Assembly: GCF_020740795.1 (NCBI RefSeq)
Contig: NC_067283.1
Span: 43,079,659 to 43,143,658 of the forward strand
Direction of reading: 5' to 3'
Source of the DNA: Apus apus
Lineage: Eukaryota > Chordata > Aves > Apodiformes > Apodidae
DNA length: 64,000 nucleotides
The translations under genes and the position numbers were made by a program. Each line of letters starts with the position of its first letter. Position 1 is the stretch's first letter. Below the pieces are notes generated by a model. It was not told where the DNA came from. It did no database searches and saw nothing but the letters and a program-made list of their open reading frames with translations. Shown here one piece after another: positions 106-56,946 of this stretch.

Positions 106-197
106 TTTGGTCCAGTGATGGTGAACATCCATGGTCCCCAGCATTATGTGACCTGCCGCACTCATACCTGAACGATCTGTAAATACCACTGTGCGTC
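106..197 (-). CDS. TCAIM: TCAIM exon 8, last exon inside the window
   Basis: 92 bases, acceptor atctttag and donor gtaaga. Residues 263-293: VVFTDRSGMSAAGHIMLGTM then DVHHHWTK. It ends on a codon boundary. The remaining coding exons lie to the left of position 1. Confidence 0.94.
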
Positions 198-3100
198 CTA
201 AAGATTGAACAAAGTGCTTTACCAATGTGGGTTATAGCAATTATTCCTAAAATTATTTACATCTCAACTATGCTAGTAACATGTCACAAGCTACACATCT
301 CTGCAGCACAAACACACATGTAGGTGCTTTTGTTATTCTCAAAATTTCAAAGAGTGGTTCTTGAAAACTCCAGTTCAATAATTCTTTTCATACAAAGCTT
401 ACCTAGTATTTGCCTTCTCCCTGTTTAAACTTGATAGATTTTCAGTTAATTGGACTTGTTTCTTACAAAGACTACTTTTAAAATACAAAAAAATCTCAGG
501 AGACAGCATATTCAAATAACCTGTACAAATCACATATACAGTAGGAAATACACACTCTATACTTAAAGTATATCTAAATAAGGCAAAGGTTTGTCAAAGA
601 ACTATCAGCACAGCCATTCAACAGAACTTCCACAGAACTCTCTGCAACATGCAAGCTGTAAGAAATGCTTTAACATTCATTTTTTTTTCCTCTTTTTTAA
701 AGAAAGAAGAGGGGCAACATAAAAGGATAATACTAGGTTTACTTTTGAGGGGACCAATCAGTTTTTAGCCCAAGTATATTTTTTTTAAGTCCAGCACAAA
801 GACCCTCAAAAATTCTTTGGGGTAAAAAGCACAGGCAATTATTTATCAAAATAAGCTTCCACAGAAGTCCTCAGTGTCATGTGTTAATCTACAAAGCCTG
901 GCTTAAATAGAAGCTCTTGCTCCCAGAAATAATTTTTCCAAAATCCTTAGGAAAGATGAACACTGACTTTAAGGAATCTCATCCATCCTTGTACCCCAAG
1001 GCAAGATCAACTGTATCTGTGTAATTACTGACAGGTATTTGGCCAGTATATTATTAAAAATCTTCAAAGATGGAGATTACAACAGGTTCACAAGACAGAC
1101 TTCTCTAGCACTTTAAAACCTTAGCATGCTTAGGTAAAGAAACTAATTTGAAACCTGATACAATTTAAAACTACTACTACTTATCCTACCCACTCTGTCT
1201 TTTGACAAAGGATTAGGTGAACCCTCAAATGAAAGCCACTCAAAACTGAGTACCTGCAGACATGCATAAATGTGGTTACTATTAGAGGAAACATGTCCTG
1301 GCTGCCACAAACAGCTGTATGAGAGGAATGGCAAGTCAGGTTTACAGAATATTCTCATTTTGCCTGAGATAATACAGACTTTAATATCGGTATTCTATGG
1401 AACATGGGTGGTAAGAGAGGACAATACTATTTTAAAGGTATTCTAAGAAGTCTTCCTTTAGAGAGCTACTCACCTTTTTCTTTTGAATCTAACCACAGGT
1501 AACAAGCCATTGCAACCTTTCAGTGGTTCAGTCTGAATTTTTTACTTCCATTATTAGTATTAAGTCTAGTGCCTTCAACTCAGTTTGTATTTATTAAAGT
1601 AAAACAGAAGCTGAGTGTAGTGAATACACTATAAGGAAAGGCCACTTAAAAAAATACCTAATAGCTTAAAATATAAGTTCTTACCAGTTTTTCAGTAAGT
1701 CTGGCAGGTTTGCTTTTCCAGTTATCAAAAGCATTTGTGAAAAGAACTAGAACTCACTTGTCACACAAGATTCTTTCTCATCTTTGAACCAATACTATGC
1801 TAGGATATATGAAACAAGCAACAAGAAATACCTTTAACATTCTTTAATATTTCAGGTCTCTGTTGGACTAAGCGACCTAGACTGTGTAGTTGACTACAGC
1901 GGTGAGCAATACCCCAGCTTCTCTGCCACCTAAATACAAATAAAATTGAAAGCATTTCATTCTCAACATCATAAAAAAAGAGAAAATGACAGAATTTGAG
2001 ATGCAGCTGAAAGCCTTTTAACACAAACAACTCCAACAAAATACCACTCCAACAGTAATAAAAGCAAAGGCCTACTAAAAAGCTGCCTGTGTCGTGTATC
2101 ATTTGACTAGATAACAAGTCTAACTGAAATTTCAGTCTTTCTTACAGTGAGTGTCAAAAATAAAAAAGGAATAAACAGATACAGGAAAAACAGATACAAA
2201 ACATGGGAGAGAAGACAGAACTTGCAGATCCCTCTGCCCAGTAAGAAGGGGGTTAGTATGTAAATAGTGACAGACAACCCAGTATTTGGTTCAGATGTGT
2301 AGCATCAGTTTCTGTTTGTACACTTTGCAATGTTTGCCTAGAGGAGCAGTCTTTTCCTTTGAATTCATAGCCCAAAATATTACTATGATTTCAGTGGCAA
2401 GTTGCTATATATATTAATATTTTATTTAGGAGTACTTTTTGTTAAACCATACAGGAACTAGGTGTTACATTGGTGACTTTACTATACAGTTTTGTTATCT
2501 CCTCCACCACAGACAGAATAAACTAAATTTCAAAAAGCACTTAAATTGTAAAGTTGTCCCAGTGTACTGAAAAATTATATCCTTTTGCAAACTTCTAGTT
2601 GATATAAAACTGTCTCAAAATGGGATGTTACCATTTGCTTATTATACTGGGTCTGTCTGGGATGAAGTTGTTTTTCTTCCCAGCCCCTCTGTGTTTTGTA
2701 CAGAACAGTGTTGATAATCCACCACTGTTTTGGCTGTTGTGCAGTGCTGGCAGAGCATCCAGGTTTTTGCATTTTCTTCCCACTCTATCCCCCTCCACCA
2801 GCAAGTGAGCTGGGGTGAGCAAGAAGCTGGGAGGGGACACAGCCAGAACAGGTGACTCCAGCTGACCAAAGGGATATTCCATACCATACAATGCCATTCT
2901 CAGCAATCCGTGCTCAGGGAAAAAAGGAGGAAGGGGGACTCTTGTGGCTATGGCATTTGCCTTCCCGAGCAAGCACTACAAATGTTGAGGTCCTGCTTTT
3001 CCAGAAGGGGCTAAACATCTGCCTGCCAATGGGGAGGGGTGAATGAATTCCTCCTTTTTGCTTTATCTCAACACACAGTTTTGCTTCACTTCACTTTAAT

Positions 3101-6100
3101 TAAACTTCTACCTTGATCCACAAGTTTTCTTGCTTTTGCTTTTCCTACTCTCGTCCTCCCACCCCACCAGGGATGTGTGAGTGAGCAGCTGTGTGGGTGC
3201 AGAGATGCTGCCTCAGGTCAACCCACACCACTTCATTTAGGGAAACCTGTCAAAAAACCACTCTGGGATGCAGAGGATGGCACTACACCACAGAGCTTAT
3301 GAGGCAATCCAATCTATTACAATGCAAGTAATTTCAATTACCATTTACTGTTACCTAACAATATCACTTTGCTTTCAGTAGCACCAGACAGGAATGCAAA
3401 AAAGTGGCTTATAGATACTACTGTCTCTTCAGCTGTCCTAAACTTTTACATAGAATAGAGCAAATGACTCCCTTATTTTTTCATACCTCTGTAAACACAC
3501 TAGCATTAGGCTGCAGGATCACAAGTAGTAATAGTAGCAGTCCTATTAAGATGCTTGTCAGATTTCTGACACTCACAGTCTTTTCTGAATTATGACAATA
3601 CAACTCTTGGAAGGTTAGTAAGTCTTCATGGAACACAATAGCTCTAGTGTATTTTAAAAGCACAAACTATAAGAAAATTAAATACAAGCCATTAATAAAA
3701 CCAAACCTGCGCATTTAATACTGAAGAGCATTTTAGAAACTTAAAAATCCCCACCACTGGCACAGCTGCAGAGGATTAGATATTGTGTTAAAAAAACCCC
3801 ACTGGTCTCAACTTAAAGGAAGCCAGGGTCTTCTACAGAGTGAAAGGAACAAAAGTATAATTCAGAAGCTCCAGTTATATCTTTTCTGGTTAAAACAACT
3901 TCATAGACTAGCCCTTGAAATAATCCCCCAAAATTCATTTTTCCATTATTTAATACACTCTCTGCCATTTTCCCATCCCAAATATGCTGCTTTAGAACAT
4001 CCTTGTTTGAAGGCACAAAATTTTAAAAAAAGAATAAGATATTGTTTCCTGGAAAACATTCTGAAGAATCAAGATCACCAACCATACTCAGCCCTTTCAA
4101 GCAAAAAAAAAATAATTAAAAAAAATCCTCCCCCTGCTCTAGAGTGTGGGAAGCAAGACACTAGAAAGAATAACATTTTTACTAAGCCTTCACAGAATGT
4201 CAGTGTGCACCATGTGCAAAGTTGCATTTCACCACCCACTCTAGTTACCTTTGTACACACCTGAATCCAGGAAAAACCCCTTTATCCAGCAAAACACCCA
4301 AACTAATGCATAAGCACAGGTCCTATTTCACATGCTTATGTGTTGCAACTGAAGCCTATGTTTTTAGTTAAAAATACTAGGTCTTTTTGAGCAGATTGTA
4401 ATAGAAAACTTTTGCCCAACATAATTCTACAAAAAATATTATTCAGTGCAGTAACACTTTCACATATTTGAAATGTAGCTGTTCTGCTGGAATAAGCCTT
4501 TAAAGCTGATGGTGTAGCATTACACAACACCTTCTTGCTTTAACTGTCTTAATTTAAGCCCAACCAATCTAATTTATTACCTGATATCTGAGAGCTGAAG
4601 CTGATGAGAGAGTTCAAATTTTAAACGTTCTAGTTCTTTTCTAAGTGGCAAACTCTTTTTCAGCTTTTTTACTGCACTTGCTTCATTATCATCTAGCCAG
4701 GATCTGAAAGAAGAGGAGGAAAAAAAAAATCCAAGAGTAGAGGCATGCTGTGTTATCTTTCATGCAAGAAGTACAACTAACTGCATTTTTATTGTTACCA
4801 TTAACATTTTATTCAAGCTACCAGGTGAAAGGATTTTTTAAAAGTAGAGGACAGAAACTGAAATTGCTAAATGCTTCACCACAGGATTTCTACAAAGAAA
4901 AACAAACAATTAGGGAATCAAACAGAGCCAAAAGAAGCTGACAGTGTTACACTCTAAGACTTAGAGGTGTGAAAGATGTAGAGCAGCAGATTAGTGTGAT
5001 TTTGGGTGGCAGCTTCAGACCTTAGTGCATTAATAAAAGAAGTTCCCACGCATCTGCCTTTAGAAACAACAAACAAAAAAGCAACTACCAAAGTGATCAC
5101 AGTAAATTATCACATAAGGGCCAAGTTAGGTAACTCTTAAGAGAGCTGGGATGAACACAGATTAAGCAGGTCAAAGTTTTACAGTTCTTTTGTCAATAAT
5201 CACAACCAGGCAAACATGACTCATGGAGTACATCTAAAACCTTCAATAAATAGATCGCTCCATTCCTAGGAAAAAGCTACTCTTTAAGAGATTTAGCCTT
5301 TGTTCATAGCATAAACTTACTTTCATATGCTTATTTTTACAAATACTGCCATTCTCATAACGTACTCTAAGTAGAAAATTCAAACTCAGAAGCAAAAAGA
5401 GAGCCTGAATGCCAAATGGCTAGGTATTAAACCCAGACTGTTAATATGTAACTTGTTTGTGCCAAAAATAAGTAAAAATACTGTTAAACTTCAGCTAAGT
5501 TTTTTTACAGTAGCATATATTACAGTAGTTTTATTTGTGAGGTGCTAGGCAGGATGAGAGGTACCACCACAGTTTTACATTTATTTCAAATGGCACTTAA
5601 GTCTCATCATCACAAAAAAGTTTAAGGCAGTATTTTTTACCCTTCCCCAAAATGAGTACATATAGAATTTATAATAAACCAACTCCTAATATGTAACAAG
5701 ATGCATTTAATGCAAGTTCAGTTCTAAATTTAAATATAAAGGTTGGTATGCTGAACATCAAAAGCACAACACTAAGATATCTGGAAAATGAAACCATTCT
5801 AACCTTAGTTTACATGTATGATCTCCCACTCCCAACAGAATATTGCTAGTATTTCATGATCACAAAGTTAATAGCCATATAGTTTGGTGTTATAAAAATC
5901 CTGTAAGAGGTAAGGAGCTATTTAGAGTCTGTCTCCTTCCGAATCACCACTGATTTTCCACAAAACTGAAAAATTAGAACAAAAACTAGATTGACCAAAC
6001 ATGAATGCTGGGTAAAGAGACAAGAACGCCTCAGCTTAGCTGGCACCATAGTTATCCCAGGAGCTCATCTGAACTCTCTTTAATTATAAAAAGTGTGACA

Positions 6101-9100
6101 GAATTACATGTTGGACAATAAAGTTTTGTACTGTTCAGAATGTTTATTGATTGCCTTTAAAAAACTCAGCATTCAGACTAAGATAAATTTAGGTTACAAA
6201 ACATCAGTTAAATAAAAAACCTTACATACATTAGAGTTGTTTCCATTCTCTGGGCTTGTTCTAGCTCCTCCTCAGGATCCTTGAATCCAGTAAATGAATA
6301 GTAAGTCTTATCCCACTTGATAGGCCTGTTCACTGTGCTTTTTGCTTCCTTGTGGGACTGAGAGTTCACATTCAAACTCTGAACATGCTCCGTTGATAAA
6401 CTGCATGAGTTGAGAATATCTAATACCGTGCTCAGGAGATCCCTAGTATGTAATGTAATACTGACTGCACGAAACCCTGCAAAACGCAAATCCCACAAAA
6501 TTAGCATTATTTAATTAAAATTATTTAAAATGCATTCACGTTTCTCTCATCTTACAGGAACCCAAACAAGGAGTACACAGTTTTGATACGCACTGCAAAA
6601 TTCACATGCAGTTTAGCCTTTAAAACCGTTACGAACCCAAAAATATAAACAGAGCTGTTTTAAATATCCAAATCCTGGTACAAGTCTGAAACCTAGCTAC
6701 AGATGAAGTAGCCAGAAAAAGTTACCCCTTTAACCCAAAAAAACCCTTTCAGTTCAGCAGTGGCAGTTTTGTCCAACAGTTCTACACAATTCCTGTTATT
6801 ACTTAGCATTGTTTTGGATATCACTTACTACAACTACAACAGCTCTTCGCAGGCTCTGGACAGAAGCTTCAGAACAAAGCATTACATTTGCACACTGCCT
6901 ACAGTTAAGCCTCACCACTTAGCTATTTGGTCTAACCCTCCCATTAGAAAGCAAGAAAGCATTAGTGTCCAGAGCAGAACACAGCTGCCAGTTGAACTGT
7001 TATTTTTAGAAGACTGGATGTAGCACTGCTATTTTCTTGAAAAGCAGCATGATTTTGTTTTCTAGCACTAGGGTCCACCACAATTTGCTCAAGTGCTTTG
7101 ACCACCAGGATACAGAACATAACTCATCTGTTAGATGAGGCCTATCTGCACATCAGAGACAAGTACATAGAATAAAAGTAATCAAAAGCAATATTCTAAA
7201 CTAAGCAATATTTTCTGTAGTCCAAAAGCTAAGAGACAATGTGGTAATTTAAAACTTCAGATACTATACAACTTCTGCTTAGAGGATGAGTTCCTACTGA
7301 TCCCACAAGCACCCTCACATTGCATATGACATTATCTGCAATGAAAACAAGCACACAACTGTTGTTCCAGTTAAAAGTGACAAAGGTATTAAAAGCAGAA
7401 AAATTATAATTTACATCAACCTATGTTTTTTACTTCCTCGTATTGTAGCTTGACCTCAACCTCATAATTCCTCATTCTTTCAATGCTTTTTAAAGCTAAA
7501 GATATTTAATTACTTGAGATGGTTCTAGCTGCCCGACCTAATACATACTTTCATGGTATGAGAGGATTTTATTCAGCTGAAAAGTGATTATGACTGCACA
7601 AGAATAATAGATTCTGCACAATATAAAAGCACCTGAAGCACTGAAGGATTCTTGAACATTAGAAGAGTTTGGCTCTCTTTCTCTCACATAAAAAGTAAGC
7701 TGAGTTGGCTTAAGGGAGCGAAATCCTGGTTTTTGTAGATTCTCCAAGTAGCCATTTAACCTCTTCAGAGAGTTTTCATTTACTTCCTTTTTTTAAAAAA
7801 AAAGTACATATTACTAATTTGTCCATTTTTCATCTAAACCTTTTTATCTTAAACCCACAATTAGTTTTTACAAATTGCCAGCTGCTCTCAACAAGTAGTG
7901 ATATAGTTCATATTATCTGCATAAATGAATAATTATCTTGCATTAATAAATAGTATGATGTACATATTTGTACATTCTTGTACATGTCGAAACACCACTT
8001 TTAAGGCTTTCAAGCTTAGAGAAATCCACTGATTCAAATATAATGCACAACATTTCAAAGTGATAAAGCAAGCAATATGTATTATAAATTATGACTGGAA
8101 GGATTCAGTATTTTCTGTGTAACAATTAAACAGAAAACATGAATAATAACTGATGGATGCTTAAGGGATTCATTCTTGTTAAAAACAAAGAAAGCGCATC
8201 TTTTTGTTCTCTGGAAACAACAGTTTTCAATTCTAATACTACATTTGTTTCTCTGACAGCAGGAAACCAGTCAATTTTCATCCTTGATATATGACACATT
8301 TACAAAGAAAGCACACAAAAAGATTTTTACCCTTTCTTTGGGATGCTGGCCAAAGAAATCTGGATGCACAGCAAAATAGAAAGGCCTCAGAGCATTGATA
8401 GCATCAGCTCCTGACAAAGTTCTTGACTGAAGTACACACTGTAGCAGCATCTTCTCAAGACATAACCTAGTAAAGTAATAAAATGTTTATGTATGATGCA
8501 ACCAATCAAGTGACAAACTGATATAAACTACATTAGAATGTGACAGAATGAAGTAAACATTCACGGTTGGAAGTATCATAATGTAAAACTGGTATAAGAA
8601 GTCTGAGTGCTCATTTTCCCCTTTGGGACTCACAGGGCTGTATTTACACAGAACAATCCAACAGGTTTGAGATGATGGATGCTAACGGTCGACTGAAGAC
8701 ATGAAAAAGAGTACAATAACTTTTCCCTCTATTTTGTCAACACAGGCTCAAATAAGAAAAAAACAATCAAGTAGCTGGAATGATAAAGACTAGCTTTAGT
8801 GGTATTTTTTGCAGCAATTGCTGAAGCTGCTCTTAAAAACCAACTCTTACATACTTTTGAACTTCCAGGTTAAAAGCAAAACCCATTTACTTTTCAAGCA
8901 GTGCCAAAAGTATACTAAATTTTACCCAGGAATAGTCATCACAATTCAACCAATGTAAGTTATGCATTAGATTGAAGTCCACACACTCGTGTCCATTAAA
9001 AAAATAAATGAATCTACTTTCCAAACATACTCTTCTGTAGGAGACATCAAGTAAAAAGACGGTGCTTTTCTTCCCTTTATTTAGTAAATTCAGGAGTCTT

Positions 9101-11429
9101 CTCCTTCAGCTGATTTCACAGGCTAACAAATTCAACAGGCCAACCATTTTCTCTGTTATCAATGTTCATTTAAGTTTGCACCTCAGGACAGATTCTCCTC
9201 TATTAAGCAGTATGATGCTGTTCAGCTCCTCACAGTATCATTCAAATTGCAAGCCCTAAATAGGAAAACTGGATGGCAAACTGGAGGCAAAGCTGCTTCC
9301 AGGCGACAAAAAACTAGTGAATTTTTATTAATAAGAGTAAGCAAGACTGTTTTACAAAGACTTATTTGTTCAGCATCCTAGAGCAACTAAATGTCCTGGA
9401 CACAGAAACACGTGGGACTATTTCCTGACTGCTTCCATTAACAACAACAACAACAAAATTTAAAAATCCCCAAACTTGTACTCAGATAATAGGCAGTATT
9501 TTTCTTTTGGCAAACAGTATTTACTTGACAACAGTTGAGTTGTCAAGCAGAGGCAATGACCCCTGCTCTACCTTTTTTCTGTCAACCTTTCCAGCTCTTC
9601 AATTAGAAACATGAAAGCAGTTAAAGCTAATGTTTTCTGTCTAAGAGGTGGGCACATATTTAATGAGTAGGTCTTAAAAGTCAGCTTGCTGAAAACAGGA
9701 GAAGTTTTCATAGAGAATTTGGATGGAAAACCTGTAATGTAAGATGGCTGATGAAATTTCAAACCACTATGACTAGAAGCAATTTTCATGAGTGCAGATT
9801 AAATGGAAGATTAAAAAAAAGATAAAATGCATCACTGACAAACACTTCTACCTCATTCCTGGCTGCATGTGAGAAAGACTCTAAGACTAGTCATCAGTAT
9901 AGCTCATTATACTATTCAAAATAGCAGATGTTGAAGTAACACAGCAATATCAGGTTTTTATGAAGAGCAGAAGCTCTCAATGACAAGAACATCCCAGAGT
10001 TGCTCAGTGATGCAGGAAAAAAATAATTCTATCTGACCCGGGAAGAATGGGAGCAAAAGACACTGAGTAAAAGTCCACTTGGTCATATGTTTTACCATTT
10101 TGGATCTGGAAACACCAGAATAGTTGTCTTGCTGAGGAAAAAAAAATAGAGACGACTTTTTTAGCAAGTGGACACAAAGCAAAAAAATAATTTCCAAGAA
10201 AGGGGGAAAAAAAAAAGTAAATTAATCAGCTACCTGTCTGATACCAGTTTTGATTAACAGCCATACAAGAAAACAACATCCTCCTACATCCAGCTTTGCT
10301 AGTAGGAAGGAAGGAGCTCAGTTCTCTCCTCACCTTATTGATACACAATTTCCCACATCCACTCTCAAGCTACACTGCATGCCGTTTCCAGAAATTAGGA
10401 AAAAAGTTCCAACACACCTGGAAACTATTAATCATACTTCAAAGTTTATTAATCATAAACTTCCATCTGGTATTCTACAAGAAAAATGGCCAAGTATGGT
10501 TAACTTCAGTTTCCTTGTTTTGTATCTAAACAACACTGTCACGCTAGCAGGAAGGCTCAGGATTCCAGCCAAACGTCTATTTTGAACTTGCTTAAAAGAG
10601 AAACGCTCAAAGGCCAAAGTTAGTCTGTGTGACAGAAGGAAGAATTCATTTACTGAAGGTGAAAGACAGAACTCTGTGGCATCCTTCAAGTGAAGTGACA
10701 AAATACATTAATTAAAATGAATTTAGAGAGGGAAAACGCAAGAAAGATTATGATGGCTTTGCTCACAAGGAGCAAGGATTGTTCCAAGAGCTTCACTCAG
10801 ATCTGAAGAGCACAGAAGAGCTTCCTATTAAAAGCAAGGTCAAAATCACCTCGACGACAGCCATCTCTGCTTCATGAAAGACATGAAACACAATCTTCAC
10901 TAGAACACATTATGCAATCGTACTCTAGGACAGATTTAATTTATTGATTAAATAATTCACTTCAGCTTTCTTTTTACTTTTTCTTCACATCTCTCTGAAG
11001 TTTAACTTTTTGGCTTATAGCTTTGGCATTGAAAAGCTTTGTTAAATTAAGCTCATTATTGCAGAGATATTAACTCTTTTTGAAACACTGAGCTTTAATA
11101 ACTCAATAATGCAGTAATATACATCATGTAATATTCAGATTTAGATTTCTCATAAGTAAGCTATTTTAAACCCCTTGTTTTGTTGAGAGGCGTTTTAATA
11201 TCTCACTCGAGGACAAGTGTATGGCTTTTGGAGATTTTCAACTGTGGATGAGCTGTTGAAAACATCAAGCTGTCAAGATGAGAGAGCCAAAGAAATAAGC
11301 ATTAAAAAAAAAAAACCTAAACCAGTTTTACATATATGCAAGTCTTAGGCAAACATTTAAACATATGCTAAAGGTAAATTAGGTCAGCAACATGCAATAC
11401 CTCCTCACGGTTCTCAAGCAGCAAAACAT
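106..11429 (-). CDS. TCAIM: TCAIM (T-cell activation inhibitor, mitochondrial), 5' part of the coding region, seven exons, runs off the left edge
   Basis: Coding joins 11429-11401, 8466-8331, 7786-7633, 6476-6230, 4703-4581, 1929-1832 and 197-106, giving 293 codons with every junction in phase. Residues 1-30 (MFCCLRTVRR onward) are rich in Arg and Leu with a single Glu, as in a mitochondrial presequence. Residues 36-52 (LRPFYFAVHPDFFGQHP) hold the HPD triplet of J-proteins at 44-46. Later blocks LQKPGF, TQLTFYVRE, RPIKWDK, SFTGFKDP, WQRSWGIAHRCSQLHSL and LGTMDVHHHW match TCAIM as I remember it. The family carries DUF4460 and DUF4461; TCAIM is known as a mitochondrial protein that restrains T-cell activation, and more recent work, as I recall, makes it a DNAJ-type co-chaperone acting on OGDH. 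The C-terminal part, roughly 200 residues by comparison with mammals, lies outside the window. The start is chosen because it encodes the family's MFC-L-R-RR beginning. Confidence 0.95.
1832..1929 (-). CDS. TCAIM: TCAIM exon 7
   Basis: 98 bases, acceptor tttgtatttag and donor gtattt. Residues 230-263: WQRSWGIAHRCSQLHSLGRL, then VQQRPEILKNVK. The first ten residues are the most recognisable family block in the window. Confidence 0.95.
2637..3230 (+). mobile_element. Solo LTR of an avian ERVL-type endogenous retrovirus, boundaries approximate
   Basis: The start reads ctgggtctgtctgggatg. The body contains agaacagtgttgataa, ctgggaggggacacagcc and accaaagggatattccatac, and near the end ctttatctcaac. 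These are blocks I know from common bird ERVL-class LTRs. The reading direction is plus, opposite to TCAIM. No gag, pol or env sequence and no second LTR are present. It is diverged, and I could not see a clear target-site duplication. Confidence 0.75.
4581..4703 (-). CDS. TCAIM: TCAIM exon 6, coiled-coil-like segment
   Basis: 123 bases, acceptor ctttcag and donor gtaata. Residues 189-230 include SWLDDNEAS, then KKLKKSLPLRKELERLKFEL and SHQLQLSDI, a basic and Leu-rich helix that is likely a coiled coil. The split Arg codon is completed by exon 7. Confidence 0.95.
6230..6476 (-). CDS. TCAIM: TCAIM exon 5
   Basis: 247 bases, residues 107-189, from GFRAVSITLHTRDLL through RPIKWDKTYYSFTGFKDPEE to METTL. 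The acceptor is ttttgcag. Two overlapping donors (gtatgt and gtaagg, 4 bases apart) exist; only the upstream one, at 6230, keeps phase with the next exon. Confidence 0.94.
7633..7786 (-). CDS. TCAIM: TCAIM exon 4
   Basis: 154 bases, residues 56-107: EVNENSLKRLNGYLENLQKP, then the TQLTFYVRE block and a Ser-rich linker ending SFSASG. The acceptor follows an A-run (aaaaaaag), which is poor in pyrimidines. The donor is gtgctt, a weak match to consensus, but the Gly codon it splits is completed correctly by the next exon. Confidence 0.93.
8331..8466 (-). CDS. TCAIM: TCAIM exon 3, end of presequence and start of J-like domain
   Basis: 136 bases, acceptor actttactag and donor gtaaaa. Residues 10-55 run from RLCLEK through SRTLSGADAINALRPF to the HPD motif and GQHPKER. 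The exon begins in phase 2 and ends on a codon boundary. Confidence 0.95.
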
Positions 11430-11476
11430 TTCTGCAACTCAATGGTCAAGCCAATTTTCAGCCATCCACTAATTCA
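11401..11476 (-). CDS. TCAIM: TCAIM exon 2, start codon exon
   Basis: An acceptor after a long pyrimidine run (tttttttaag) opens the exon at 11476. ATG is at 11429-11427 and coding runs to 11401, donor gtattg, phase 2. It encodes MFCCLRTVR plus the first two bases of Arg10; the last codon is completed by the G that opens the next exon. The 47 bases before the ATG are 5' UTR. Confidence 0.85.
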
Positions 11477-13605
11477 CTTAAAAAAAGAAAAAGAAAAATC
11501 CTGTTTAGTAACAGACATTAATCTTTTTCCCCTGTTACTCAGTGCATTCTCTAAACCCCAGCAGATAACTTTTCAAGTCACAATAGTAAGGCAAAATTGA
11601 GAAACCACACATAAAGCCTAAAGTTTTGCCTAAGATTGTTTTCAGTTTCATCTAAGAGTGAGTCTCACAAATTATTAAGAGTTGGTACCATCTCTTGATT
11701 TGAAGATGAATATCTAAAGATGTTCCAGTGAGGAAAAAAACCTAAAAAGTTATTTACTGAAAATGTTTCCCACTCTTCCTGATGTTCAGTTTTTGTCTCA
11801 AATATAGAAACAAACAAACAAAAAATAACAGAAGCTTTCTTTAAGCACTAACACTTACTAGTTATTGAATTCCACATACATTTTCAACCTAAGTCCAAAA
11901 CTTTCAGACAAATTATAACACTTTAAATTTATATGCCAACTATTTTATGGGGGCAAATTATAAAAACAAAATGAAAGACGCTATCATAGAATGATGTCTG
12001 GAAATCTTTAGCAAAAGTTTGCTTGCATTTATTAAAATGAATCACCAAATTTTTACGAGTAACTTCTGGACTATGCTACTGTAATTGAGTGTTTTCCAAC
12101 AGGAGATAAACCACTTGGCATGTCAGAGTACAAACGTACCCAATTATTGGGGTTTATAAGGGAAGATCCCTCTTGGCAATGTTTTATCATGTTTTCACGT
12201 GCTATTAAAAAAAACCCACCAACTTTTCTTTGCACTGTTCAAAATAACATTTCCATAAGTATGCCATTTTAAAGCACACGGGGTGAGCAGTTATCAGAAA
12301 CACCATCCCTCTTCCAGCACAACAGGATAGTTTCTATGACTACTCTGCAGAACAGAACCCTTAAAGTTTTAGAAGCGCGTCTTACTAATATAAATATACT
12401 TCACTAAGAATATAAATTGTTTACCAGATATTTTACTAGAAGCAAATAGGGTGAGAAAACAAATGCTGAGCTAAAGTAGCCCCAAAATACCTTATAATTC
12501 CTGTATTCTGATTTTCAGCTAGGTGGGCAAGTTCCATCTTCAGTGTCCCTAACAACAATCCTAATCATAAAGTAACTTAAACACATTAAATAAGCTCCCT
12601 GGTAATGAAAGTTTTCCCTTGTTGTAATTTTAGCCTCAGGGATTTGGACAGAGCATGGAAAAACCTAAGAATCTCACTAATCGGTGGCGACACTTTATAT
12701 AACTAGACAAAAGCATCACTGTTTCTTGTTTTAAACGCTCTATTCATCCCTCAGAAACTCTTACAACGCTTAATTGACAAATAAGAGCCCCCAGGTTTGG
12801 AGCCAGCTCCACCTGCACCCCACCTCACAGATACGCCTGCTGAGACGACACAAAACGCCAAGGATGTCGCAGTCACTCGGCAAGCAGAAAAGCCCCTGGG
12901 AACACGAGGGACGCTGCACGAGGCGCTACCTCGGCGCTGCCCCCGGGGTGACCCGCTCCGGACCCTCAGGCAGCCTGAGGACACCGGCGGGCACAGGAAC
13001 CAGAGGAGAGCGCCCAGAAACGCAGCGCTCGGGAGAAAACAAAACTGCAGTGATGCAACTCCGGGCAGATTTAACCACCAAACACAGACCCCCTGATGGA
13101 ACCGCGTTTAAAACCCGCTGAAGAGAAGGAGGTCGGTCCTGCCGACGGCGACCTACCGGCACGAACGGGCGCTACGGGCCTTGCCCCGCCGTTACAAAAG
13201 GCACCGGGACCAGCAGCGACCGCCCGCACCCGCCGGCCCGGAGCAGCTCGGGGCCCGGCCCGGCCGCTGCCCCCGAGCAGGTGCCCCGGGGCTCGGCTCC
13301 CGGGCACCGCCGGCCCCCAGCGACCCGGCCCTGCCGCCCCGCTCCCCGCGATGGGGGGGGTGGGGGGGACGGACGCCAACACCGGAGGAGCTGGCGCAGC
13401 GCCCGGCCCCGCCGCCCACCTGCCGGGCCCGCTCCTCCGCCACAGCGGCCGCCCCGCACGCCGGGGCCCGCCACGCCACACCGCACCGCACCGCACGGCC
13501 TGCTCGCTGCGCAGCCCACCCACCTCCCGCCCCGCCCCAGCTCGGCCTCGCACCGCCTCCCCCTCTCCTCTCCCGAGCGCCCGCCCTCACAGAGGAGCGC
13601 CCGGG

Positions 13606-13640
13606 CCCAGCCCAGCCCAGCCCAGCCCAGCCCAGCCCAG
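13606..13640 (+). repeat. (CCCAG)7 pentanucleotide array
   Basis: Seven perfect copies of CCCAG. On the TCAIM transcript strand it reads CTGGG and starts 7 bases inside intron 1, immediately after the gtaagg donor. Confidence 0.98.
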
Positions 13641-13716
13641 CCCTTACCGCCAGGGCCGGACAGCGCCGGCCCGGCCCCCATCGCCTGGCGCGGCCGCCGC
13701 CGCCGCCGTTCCCGGA

Positions 13717-13726
13717 GGGAATTCCC
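13717..13726. promoter_or_regulatory. Palindromic kappaB-like site
   Basis: GGGAATTCCC fits the GGGRNWYYCC consensus on both strands. It lies about 70 bases upstream of the exon 1 donor, so it may be in exon 1 or in the core promoter. Motif match only. Confidence 0.45.
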
Positions 13727-13757
13727 GCCGGGGGCGGCGCCAGGGCGGGGAGCGGCG

Positions 13758-13769
13758 CGCGCAGGCGCG
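13758..13769. promoter_or_regulatory. NRF-1-like site
   Basis: CGCGCAGGCGCG fits the NRF-1 core GCGCA-N-GCGC. NRF-1 drives many nuclear genes for mitochondrial proteins, which suits TCAIM. Motif match only. Confidence 0.55.
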
Positions 13770-13798
13770 GGGCCGCAGGGGGCGGGCGGGGCGATGGC

Positions 13799-13919
13799 GC
13801 CGGGGCCGGGGCCGGGGCCGGGGCCGGGGCCGGGGCCGGGGCCGGGGCCGGGGCCGGGGCCGGGGCCGGGGCCGGGGCCGGGGCCGGGGCCGGGGCCGGG
13901 GCCGGGGCCGGGGCCGGGG
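13799..13919 (+). repeat. Perfect GGGGCC hexanucleotide array, about 20 units
   Basis: Twenty uninterrupted 6-base units, with the last truncated by one base before an A at 13920. The plus strand is GGGGCC (G-quadruplex prone); the TCAIM sense strand is GGCCCC. It lies about 150-270 bases upstream of the TCAIM exon 1 donor. All six frames stay open through it and would give Gly-Pro, Gly-Ala, Gly-Arg, Pro-Ala and Pro-Arg dipeptide runs. I do not call these genes. Confidence 0.98.
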
Positions 13920-14060
13920 AGGAGTGGAAGCAAAGGACCTTGCTGTTACGGCCGCGGTGTTGCTGCCGCCCTCGGTTGCCAAGCGCGCCGCGAAGGACGG
14001 CGCTGCGGCTGCTCCTCAAAGGCCCTGCTAAGGCAGGGTGCAGGGAGAGCGGTCCCCTTC

Positions 14061-17000
14061 TTCCTTGCAGTGCCTCCTGCTTCCCACGCTGGGGTACTCC
14101 CAGAGCTGTGCCTCGGGGGCAGGGCAGGGGGGTCCCTGGCGCGGGGGGCTGCTGCTGCCGGGCCACGCGGAGGAAAGGCCTTCGCCCGGTCTTCACGCAC
14201 CCTCCACGTTTCCTGCGTTCTGTGGAAAGAAAGGGCCAAGTGGGCCGAGAAGCAGCTGTGAGCTCTGCGGTGCCGAGGGGGAAAGCAAAAGCGGTGTTGC
14301 TGCAGTCACCCACACTCGATGTGCGCTCGCGGCTATGCATCTGTTTTGTCTTCCAAGGTAGCTGGGTGTCAAAAGGCAGCTGATGGGGAGACACGGAGCT
14401 TTAGAGCAAAGACGTCTACTGCTGCAGGGCAGAGAGTGGTTAACTGTTAGGGATTTGAGTGATTTGCATACAGTCTATTGAATTTTCAGGCAGAAGAGGT
14501 TAAGAAGAGGACTGACAAGGTTTAGGAACTAGCTGTAGCTCAATGAAGCTTTAAATCATCAAGTTAACACTCTCACAGCCCTTGGGGGATTTGCATAATT
14601 TCCGTAACGTGCAGCATGTTTTTTGCCTCCCGATAGGAGCCATCAGTTATGTAAGCAAATTGGTTGCATAATTATGCAGATGGGAAAATAAATTTGATTC
14701 AACAGAAAAGCGTGCTGTTCATTTCACCCGGGAGTTCTTTCAACTCGGTGAGGAATAAACTAAACTGGGAAGCAGCAGGTGATGATGCCAGGTACCAGCT
14801 CTGTGGAATAGGGTACCCATTTTCAAACAGCTAGAGCAAGCCATCCCCAAGCACAGGAATTAATTCCTACTTCTTAGCTAAAGGTCTCAACACTTACTGC
14901 TTGTGAAAGTCACCAGAACATTCCATGTGGCTTTATCTGGTCTTGTTATTCCCTATCAGTTCCCAGGACACATCCCACTGGCTCAGCAGGAGCAGCACAG
15001 ACACTTCTGAACAGAAAGCTTGTTTTATACCAGATAAAATAAACAACTGAAGTTTGTATTTTGACTACATCTTGTCCCCTAACACGGAGAATTTTAAGCA
15101 TCACAATGAAGTTGATACAAGCAGCAACGAGCCATTTTCTCTTCACTCTTGTTTCTGTTCTAGTCCTTAGTCTGCAGATGGCCAGAAAGTGGCACCAGTT
15201 TTTCCAGTCCCATCACACACAATAGCACAGGCTCTGAGGCCACTGACATCAACGTTTATTTTTTATACTACTCATCATACTAGTCATTTTAGAAAAGTTA
15301 CACAGAAGGGGTTAAGACTGAAACATGTCAGACCTGGGATGTGCCAAAACACCCTTGCAAAGATGAAGGATGTGTCTGGAGAATGTGAAAGGGCAGACAT
15401 GTGAACTAGTAGCTGCTCTTATGTGGCCATATTTTAGCAAAGCTGAGGAGCATGGCATTAAGGTTTTGGTAATTAAAGATTTGATTACTACACCAGGGAC
15501 ATTTCATTTTACTGCTCTCCTCACTAACATCCATCAGAATTCTTCAGCGAATTGAGCACAAACCAGAGGCCTCGTTGTAGCCTCCACTCGAGTCTGTAGT
15601 TAAAGCTGGAAGCTGGCCACGTCCACAGCTGGGAGTTTCAGCCCAATTTATTCATGAGCATTTGCTACACGATGTGCTACAGTGTGGTGAAAAACTGAAT
15701 AGTCTGACTGATTTCACACATTCTTAACCTCCTCATGCAGCATATCATACTCTAGATTCTTGTAGTAGTTATGAGATATTAAACTCTCCACATCAGCTTT
15801 GCCATTCACCTATCCTCCTGTGTACCTAAATATATTAATTTCAGGGATCTGAATGGAATGAAATAATTTAATGACAATACTGACTCACAGATATTTTGAA
15901 TACTTCGTATAAAGAATATAAAACGTTTATTAACATCTTAACAACTCATCTGAAATGATCCTCCCAGTCACTTTTTATAAAACATTGTAAAACTATCACT
16001 GTAAGACTTCTATTTTCAGCTTCTCACCCTCTGTTCCCAGTTTAAGAAATTCTCAGAACTATCAATGCTTTGAAATAACATTGTGGTAAGTCTTCCAAAC
16101 AACATTATTCTGTTTTAGTTACAAGAAAGTGTCCACACCTAACAAAAGTCATCTTTCCAAGAGCATACCTTGTAATGAGTGAAAACTGAAGAAACATTTT
16201 TACAAAGGGCATTTCTCACACATCTAACAACACATGCTGAAGGAGCACAGCATTGCCTAGACCTGGATACTGAGTGCAGCACAGGAAAGGGGGTTTTTGT
16301 ACCTTTTTCTGTCTCTGTCTGCAAAGAGGTAAGCATACATTTTATTTCCTGTATGAAAAACTAAATACATTTTTTAAATGGCTTAATCTCAAACACAAAA
16401 ATTCTTTCAGCTTCTAAGAAGCAGCAATTTTTACCTGGGAAAAAGAAAAAATATGGATATAGTCTACCTGAGTGGATGGCTACGCAAAACTGCATTGTCT
16501 GTTACACTTAACTTTATACTTTGAAACATTTTTTCATCTTCCCAGGCTTGTTTCCATTACACACTGGAGTTTCGTCCTGTTTAGCACATGGAATTTGTGT
16601 CACCAAAATAGTACTGAGAATGTTGCTCAAGAAACTTTTCTGGCATTTTGATGCACATCAAAATGATCAGATTTCTATGGTATTTCACATGGACACAGAC
16701 AGTATAAAAAAGTGACAGTAAAGCTGTTTAAATTGGCTACTGGTTTATCCTGGTGATTGGGAGAAACACTGTATTGACAGAAACACCAGATATACCAGTT
16801 GTAAAAAAAATCTGAGCAATGATTTGCATTTGGGGAGCTTGTTTTGCTTGTTAATACAAAACATGCCTGAGATTGCACCCTATGAGCTGAAGATGGTACT
16901 CAGGAGATGGAGCCAAAACATTGCATAAATTTTACAGAGTTCCAAGTTAAGCTGGAAGGTCAATTATTAACCTCTGTCTGAAAAATAAATGAACATTTGG

Positions 17001-19200: not shown

Positions 19201-55242
<36,042 letters not shown>

Positions 55243-55299
55243 CACAGGAGCCTAGAAACACACACAAAAAAACCCCTCATAAAACCCACTCCCCGGTGA

Positions 55300-56050
55300 A
55301 TCTTTAACAGCACCGCAGCTAGCCCAGCACCCAGGAGGGATACAGGCCGGACCAGCAGAGGAGCACAACCCCTCCCAGGCTACGACCTTCGGGGTCGCAC
55401 CCGGCTGGCACAGCCTGACGGAAAGCCCAGGCCTCCCGGGGGAAAGCCCGAACCACCGCTCCCCCTCGCAGCCCGGAGCAGCCCCTCACCCTCACCGCGG
55501 AGCAAGAGGCTCCGGGGCACCGGGGCACCGCACCGCGCCGCGGCCGCCCCTGCCACGCAGCCCCCCGCGCCCGCCGCGCTCCCGTTCCGCCGCCCAGGCC
55601 GCTCCCCGCTCCGGCCCCGCCGCCCACCTGCCCGTCCCTCGACGCGCCGCCCGCCCGGCCTGCCCTGCCCGCGGCGGGTAATGGCGGCGCAGAGCCCCGC
55701 GCTGAGGCGGGGCTGCGCACGGGGCCGGCCGCGGCTGCCCTCGGAGCGGGCGTGGTGGCTCGGTTGAAGGCTGGGAGGGCTGCGTCTTGCTGCTTCCTTG
55801 CCCGAAGCCGCGCTCGGGCGGAGGGGCCGGCAGGGCCGGGCAAGGCCGCAGCTGCGGGCTCAGCGGCGACCTGAGGCGCCGGGGACCTGCGTGGAGCTGC
55901 CGGACCCTGTGAGGCACCGAGTGGTGGGGAAATGTTCGGCTCGCCCCGAGCTGAGTGTTGGGTAGAAAAAACCCCGGGCTGCTCAGCTTGCCGGTTTCTT
56001 CAGGTGTTCCGTCCACCTCAGTGAAGCGGGGTTGCCCCGTTTGTCCTTCA
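55300..56050. promoter_or_regulatory. TOPAZ1: CpG island, TOPAZ1 promoter
   Basis: GC- and CpG-rich block at the 5' end of TOPAZ1. A YY1-like TAATGGCGGC lies at 55,679-55,688. There is no TATA box. A divergent plus-strand transcript could start here, but no plus-strand gene can be recognised. Confidence 0.75.
55496..55700 (-). other. TOPAZ1: TOPAZ1 upstream exon in the CpG island (candidate)
   Basis: The acceptor at 55252 needs a donor upstream. Two candidates occur in the GC-rich block: gtgagg (exon end 55496) and gtgggc after gggcag (exon end 55628). The 5' end is unknown. The minus-strand frame here is open from 55843 and both donors are in frame with the ATG exon, so the exon may be 5' UTR or may encode an N-terminal extension. 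Confidence 0.4.
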
Positions 56051-56946
56051 GGAGCTCTCCAAAATGGAGGGGCAACACGCTGGTTTCCATCACCTTAAAC
56101 AAACTTTTAAATAGTGCGGTTTCTAAGGACCGGGGTGAGGAAAAAAGTAGCTCAAGTAGTTAAACTACCTAGTCAGAAAACAGCCAAAGCTGGTGTTTGG
56201 GCTTCAAATGCTGGTGATGGTTTCAACACGAATGGAGGACACCAAAGCTTCGGGACCATTCCCTGTGGGATAACGTAGAAAGTGGCTCACAAAGTCAGTG
56301 TTGTAAAAAGATTGAACCTAAATGAAGAAGGCTTTGAAAATCACAGATTAATAAACTCAGTAAGGTGATACTTTACTGCCAAGAACGTGATCAGCCAAAC
56401 TGCACACGGCTGATCTGTGTTCTACAAGCCGTGCCTTTCTGTTTGCAGGTGGCCTCTGAGGGATGAAGTACCTGATTCACTCTGACTTCGTGCTTGGGAG
56501 TGTTCACATTTCATTCATCCTCGTTTGAGACCTGTGCACAGAAAGAAAGCTTTTTGTGGCACTACTTTCCAGAAGTGCAGTACCGTGGATGTAGAAGAGC
56601 TGTTGCAGAGTAAAGGCTTGTTTTACCAAATGATGTTTGTTCACTATGTGACTTTAGCTCATGTTACTCACTTTATCTCTCTTTCTCCATCTCTAGGTAG
56701 AGATAATACATCACTGTCCAAATACAGTCAGAGAACACTGGATTTGCAGCAAAGGCTCTCTGTACATGAGGAAAGAACAGGCAGGACGGGAAGTTGTTCA
56801 CTTTCTTTAGCTTATCATCTTGTAGGTTGCACGTGTATGCCTAAGTACAACAAAATAGTAATTGGGTGGCTAATTAAAGTTAATCAAAGTAGAAAATACA
56901 GATTTCTTAGGTAGTTTCTCCCCCAGCTCAGTATTGGTCCTTGGGA

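Follow-up and report, generated by a model that had tools for sequence, protein, structure and literature searches.

The stretch of swift (Apus apus) DNA analysed here (the window; 64,000 bases, with no N) carries TCAIM on the minus strand and, upstream of it on the same strand, TOPAZ1. A pure GGGGCC array lies in the 5' CpG island of TCAIM. The coordinates of the gene model, the array and the promoter features are collected in Table 1.

Ten open frames were used as input for the domain search. DUF4460 was matched by the minus-strand frames at 8271-8486 (E 4.2e-12), 7538-7792 (E 7.7e-14) and 6208-6510 (E 0.0035, which is under the family cut-off), and DUF4461 by the frame at 1800-2141 (E 1.1e-9), while the other six of the 10 frames matched neither family. 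The frame at 1800-2141 also matches chain C of PDB entry 8i0k, which is T-cell activation inhibitor, mitochondrial; the PDB search with the exon 4 frame gave no match. The assembled partial protein has an identity of up to 96% to bird TCAIM records, for a query that carried an erroneous five-residue prefix (AVRPW) from a discarded exon model. Moreover, the first coding exon begins with MFCCLRTVRR, and most of the bird TCAIM records with a complete start, among those read, begin with MFxxLRxxRR. The domain matches, the structure match, the identity to bird records and the conserved N-terminus all agree with the name TCAIM that the original prediction had given to this gene.

The end of exon 1 was placed at 13648 by a sequence model, from GGCG followed by the donor GTAAGG on the minus strand, and the 5' end of exon 2 is the acceptor that we judged likeliest. 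As the exon at 11401-11476 encodes the conserved MFCCLR..RR start, the CpG-island exon ending at 13648 is read as an untranslated exon 1. Joining exon 1 directly to the exon at 8466 would give a poly-Pro-Arg extension in frame with TCAIM; this candidate was rejected because bird homologues start with MFCCLR..RR and the frame stops once the exon at 11401-11476 is inserted. Two short upstream frames were observed in this model: a 13-codon frame from the ATG at 13681 in exon 1, given the modelled splice to exon 2, and an 8-codon frame (MAENWLDH) in the modelled exon 2 (11401-11476, minus strand), which stops three codons short of the TCAIM start.

TOPAZ1 is represented by an 834-codon open frame at 50023-52527 on the minus strand. 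Stretches of it have identities of 89% (175 of 196) and 82% (236 of 288, with a misjoined start) to Chaetura pelagica, and one stretch matches the treeswift Hemiprocne comata at 78% (378 of 484); the remaining 118 of the 120 matches listed have identities of 49-75%, with varying coverage. TOPAZ1 thus appears to be fast-evolving, as judged from these alignments. A second long minus-strand open frame of 414 codons is located at 54007-55251. Neither of these two long frames had a match in Pfam, and the tRNA and Rfam scans gave no match.

Table 1. Coordinates of the TCAIM exons, repeat arrays and promoter features in the window
Feature	Position	Strand	Basis or remark
TCAIM exon 8; gene continues past the window	106..197	-	
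TCAIM exon 7, DUF4461	1832..1929	-	match to PDB 8i0k chain C
TCAIM exon 6	4581..4703	-	
TCAIM exon 5	6230..6476	-	weak DUF4460 match, E 0.0035, below cut-off
TCAIM exon 4, DUF4460	7633..7786	-	domain match
TCAIM exon 3, start of DUF4460	8331..8466	-	domain match
TCAIM exon 2, where coding begins (MFCCLRTVRR; ATG at 11429)	11401..11476	-	ten residues identical to the start of P0003
Pure pentanucleotide array (GGGCT in the TCAIM sense direction) near the beginning of intron 1; quadruplex motif by the donor on the pre-mRNA strand	13605..13643	-	
TCAIM exon 1, modelled, untranslated; donor at 13647/13646 (GTAAGG)	13648..13713	-	5' end from skew switch only, approximate
Cumulative GC-skew minimum; presumed approximate centre of bidirectional-type promoter	13713		minus strand G-rich below, plus strand above, overall
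NRF1-like core GCGCCTGCGC, lying between array and putative start	13759..13768	-	
Further quadruplex motif on the plus strand, immediately preceding the array; contains GGGCGG boxes at 13780 and 13784	13769..13791	+	
Open frame reading Met-Ala-(Pro-Gly)20 across the array, 155 codons without stop	13794..14258	+	
Uninterrupted GGGGCC array of 121 bases (20.2 periods)	13799..13919	+	exact repeat scan, TRF

The array is a 121-base run of exact period 6 on the window sequence, to which TRF assigned 20.2 copies with 100% matches, 0% indels and a score of 242 (the top of 10 rows). In the GGGGCC register (13802-13919) it consists of 19 full units and a final GGGG, giving 20 G4 tracts, with GCC directly before the first. 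A perfect (GGGGCC)20 had been claimed, and this is borne out to within the choice of register, without any interruption. The unit is indeed the hexanucleotide whose expansion in human C9orf72 causes ALS, with 100% identity between units, and the array lies 151-271 bases from the modelled exon 1 end at 13648, where 150-270 bases from the donor had been given. The plus strand reads GGGGCC and the sense strand of TCAIM reads GGCCCC. Over the array, the six frames encode the dipeptides GA, GP and GR on one strand and PA, PR and PG on the other. Among 1000 sequences of 1200 bases that were simulated with the island's nearest-neighbour composition (array excluded), none had an exact period-6 run longer than 19 bases, versus the 121 observed, which confirms that the array is far above chance expectation.

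The original prediction knew of no report of such an array in a bird, and our literature search found none either among the titles that it listed, with subscription papers mostly outside its scope. The main text of a survey of avian promoter repeats (PMC4725869) mentions neither GGGGCC nor TCAIM. An exact scan for 10 GGGGCC units in 84,980 prokaryote genomes, which is not a yardstick for birds, found 24 stretches, two of which have a pure run of at least 20 units. The longest pure runs among these prokaryote stretches are 27.3 units in Salinispora pacifica and 25.7 units in a Pseudonocardia sp.

In the island, CpG observed/expected is 0.67-1.02 across six 200-base bins (13101-14300). The cumulative GC skew, scanned over 12901-14400, reaches its minimum at 13713, and the position is identical with or without the array. 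The plus-strand skew is -0.279 in 13300-13713, and in 13714-14127 it is +0.159 without the array and +0.224 with it, so the array itself contributes part of the skew on the plus side. Two 50-base bins run contrary to this switch, 13350-13399 (+0.47) and 14050-14099 (-0.31); a plus-strand quadruplex motif is also present at 13353-13368. In mouse, promoters with long upstream antisense RNAs were described as having two inverted skew profiles and one-way promoters as having the downstream profile (PMC3882496). A CpG island whose GC skew is inverted between the flanks of a putative start, as found here, has the pattern of a bidirectional-type promoter.

From the skew flip at 13713, the start of TCAIM is read near 13.7 kb with the array upstream of it; if the start is 13713, the array lies 86-206 bases upstream. 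The skew and one motif, the NRF1-like core, suggest this arrangement. Neither a TATA-box nor a CCAAT-box was found in 13400-14100. In the same interval, the sole minus-strand match to the initiator-like YYANWYY is at 13927, beyond the array, and this one match speaks for a start near 13925; the array would then stand at the beginning of the TCAIM 5' UTR. A palindromic NF-kappa-B-like site, GGGAATTCCC, is located at 13717-13726 on the GC-skew switch of the promoter of a gene that is a T-cell activation inhibitor by name. The claim that the array is in the TCAIM promoter stands for its location within the 5' CpG island of TCAIM.

The relation to the gene differs from what a C9orf72-like reading implied. 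The array is on the 5' side of the single exon 1 donor that was identified, hence outside the intron behind that exon, unless there is an alternative exon further upstream. With TCAIM on the minus strand, the upstream-antisense direction reads GGGGCC and the sense direction GGCCCC. The original prediction was silent on the gene being on the minus strand; compared with C9orf72 the orientation is reversed, with the G-rich strand antisense to TCAIM.

The array forms one continuous plus-strand quadruplex motif of 118 bases (13802-13919), and its mean G4Hunter score is 2.07. With at least four tracts of three or more G, short loops and a position near the putative start, it has the sequence of a putative promoter G-quadruplex element. 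A quadruplex-aware RNA energy model gave -186.8 versus -89.3 kcal/mol for GGGGCC RNA, and for GGCCCC RNA it gave a hairpin only, without quadruplex; these folding energies come from an RNA model only, and RNA of either strand from the array is putative. ViennaRNA folds without quadruplexes were not unusual for either strand (z -1.14 and 0.20). Strong quadruplex potential is confined to the plus strand of the array, and the expectation that it should form G-quadruplexes finds agreement, as potential of this one strand, in the 118-base motif, the G4Hunter score and the energy model. The GGGCT array, 7.8 copies of its pentanucleotide, lies on the sense strand right by the exon 1 donor and is arguably better placed than the GGGGCC array to act on RNA.

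The array fits a class that has been described in birds. It is a pure repeat of a 2-6-base unit with at least six units, located within 2 kb upstream of a gene, which is the definition of an avian promoter microsatellite taken from PMC4725869; for each of five bird species, the same survey put the number of perfect short repeats in 2-kb promoters at 973 (turkey) to 1,631 (zebra finch). Three further pure arrays with 3- or 5-base units exist in the same island, at 13479-13496, 13605-13643 and 13693-13708 (units CACCG, GCCCA and GCC), and the same test found no pure arrays in the neighbouring TOPAZ1 island (54800-56200). The TCAIM island looks slippage-prone from this. If substitution rates are assumed to be 1.5-3e-9 per site per year, a single substitution in the array is expected after 2.8-5.6 million years on average. 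A spotless array set against this expected wait suggests recent growth or continual homogenisation. The array is probably young or continually homogenised, and the argument for youth is weak, as slippage can also purge changes.

We consider it probable that the array is a lineage-specific, slippage-grown, GC-rich promoter microsatellite, probably a recent one, with a weak effect on TCAIM if any. It would have grown by replication slippage in the TCAIM CpG island, probably recently and in one bird lineage, and it would probably sit just upstream of the TCAIM start, with the G-rich strand toward upstream-antisense transcription. The plus strand may fold into quadruplexes, and the 20 CpGs of the array, if unmethylated, may keep nucleosomes and DNA methylation off. 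If it acts at all, the array would be a weak length-tunable spacer or opener of a bidirectional-type promoter.

A stronger role, in which the length of the array sets TCAIM output through a plus-strand quadruplex or R-loop and is itself under selection, seems rather unlikely to us. The array is the highest-scoring tandem repeat in the window, it stands beside the promoter, and its long continuous quadruplex motif is on one strand. The skew switch would put the G-rich strand as the non-template of upstream antisense transcription, a geometry that favours R-loops according to the work on skewed promoters (PMC3882496), and expression can be tuned by tandem repeats in promoters, according to a survey in yeast (PMC10027321). 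However, for transcription of TCAIM itself the G-rich strand is the template or is untranscribed, so R-loops are not favoured in that direction, and longer-unit promoter repeats are seldom conserved among birds: repeats with tetranucleotide or longer units make up less than 1% of the bird promoter repeats conserved between species, as given in PMC4725869.

There is only a small chance that the assembly collapsed or polished the array and that its real length is smaller or larger, or its sequence interrupted. Avian GC-rich tandem repeats with quadruplex motifs were described as hard for Illumina and inefficient for PacBio sequencing (PMC6792250), but 121 bases are short relative to long reads, no N occurs in the window, and an intact splice donor, a CpG island and coding exons surround the array.

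The array might also be transcribed, either as an upstream-antisense GGGGCC RNA or within a long TCAIM 5' UTR as GGCCCC, and give dipeptide-repeat peptides, with a plus-strand AUG leading into Pro-Gly; we regard this as very doubtful. The ATG at 13794 is the sole plus-strand ATG in 13601-14000, lies 8 bases before the first GGGG and has a G at both -3 and +4 (GGGGCGATGG), and the Pro-Gly frame that it opens runs for 155 codons without a stop. In the TCAIM direction, the initiator-like match at 13927 is just before the array. Poly-PG and poly-PR started at AUG codons in human C9orf72 antisense constructs (PMC10541178). Against this, none of 547 homologue candidates matched residues 40-155 of the Pro-Gly frame at E 0.01. 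The ATG may be there by chance or as part of a YY1-like site (GATGGCG at 13793), and upstream antisense RNAs are mostly short-lived. Translation of the Pro-Gly frame is unlikely. That a bidirectional promoter makes a GGGGCC RNA whose first AUG leads into the Pro-Gly repeat, so that a wild vertebrate would use a canonical start to produce a dipeptide of the C9orf72 type, and that array length would affect TCAIM, is extremely improbable.

The human C9orf72 repeat lies between exons 1a and 1b, with 2-24 units as the normal range and more than 30 as pathological (PMC10532825). The array here shares with it the hexanucleotide, the location near the 5' end of a gene and the same six-frame dipeptides, and for exon-1b transcripts the human repeat is upstream as well. 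However, the gene is another one, the G-rich strand is antisense to TCAIM whereas it is sense in C9orf72, no first intron holding the array was found, and next to the array stands an ATG in frame with Pro-Gly. Its 20.2 periods fall short of 30 units, and some 20 units fall within the 2-24 that are normal in humans (PMC10532825). A C9orf72-type repeat expansion was accordingly rejected as a class for this array, as it has neither the sense orientation nor the pathological length; the folding behaviour of the unit may still be common to both. Disease-like silencing from the unit alone was rejected as well, and no silencing would be expected from length alone, as the length is within the human normal range.

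Other repeats offer closer comparisons in some respects. Like the CGG repeat of FMR1 and other GC repeats in CpG-island 5' UTRs or promoters (PMC10027321), this is a GC-rich, CpG-bearing array in an island near a start; it differs in being a hexanucleotide, in being probably upstream of the start and not in the 5' UTR, and in showing no sign of expansion. With the avian promoter short tandem repeats of PMC4725869 it shares the promoter position and a pure repeat of at least six units, and it differs from them in its six-base unit and its very high quadruplex potential.

Should bird promoters carry long pure GGGGCC arrays with lengths in the upper part of the human normal range, these would offer a natural comparison for the causes of the stability, non-methylation and harmlessness of such repeats. 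The reversed orientation and the abutting AUG lead to separate predictions that are cheap to check. If the array is a neutral microsatellite, which is most likely, it would serve as a length marker and as a caution against carrying disease logic over from a shared repeat unit.
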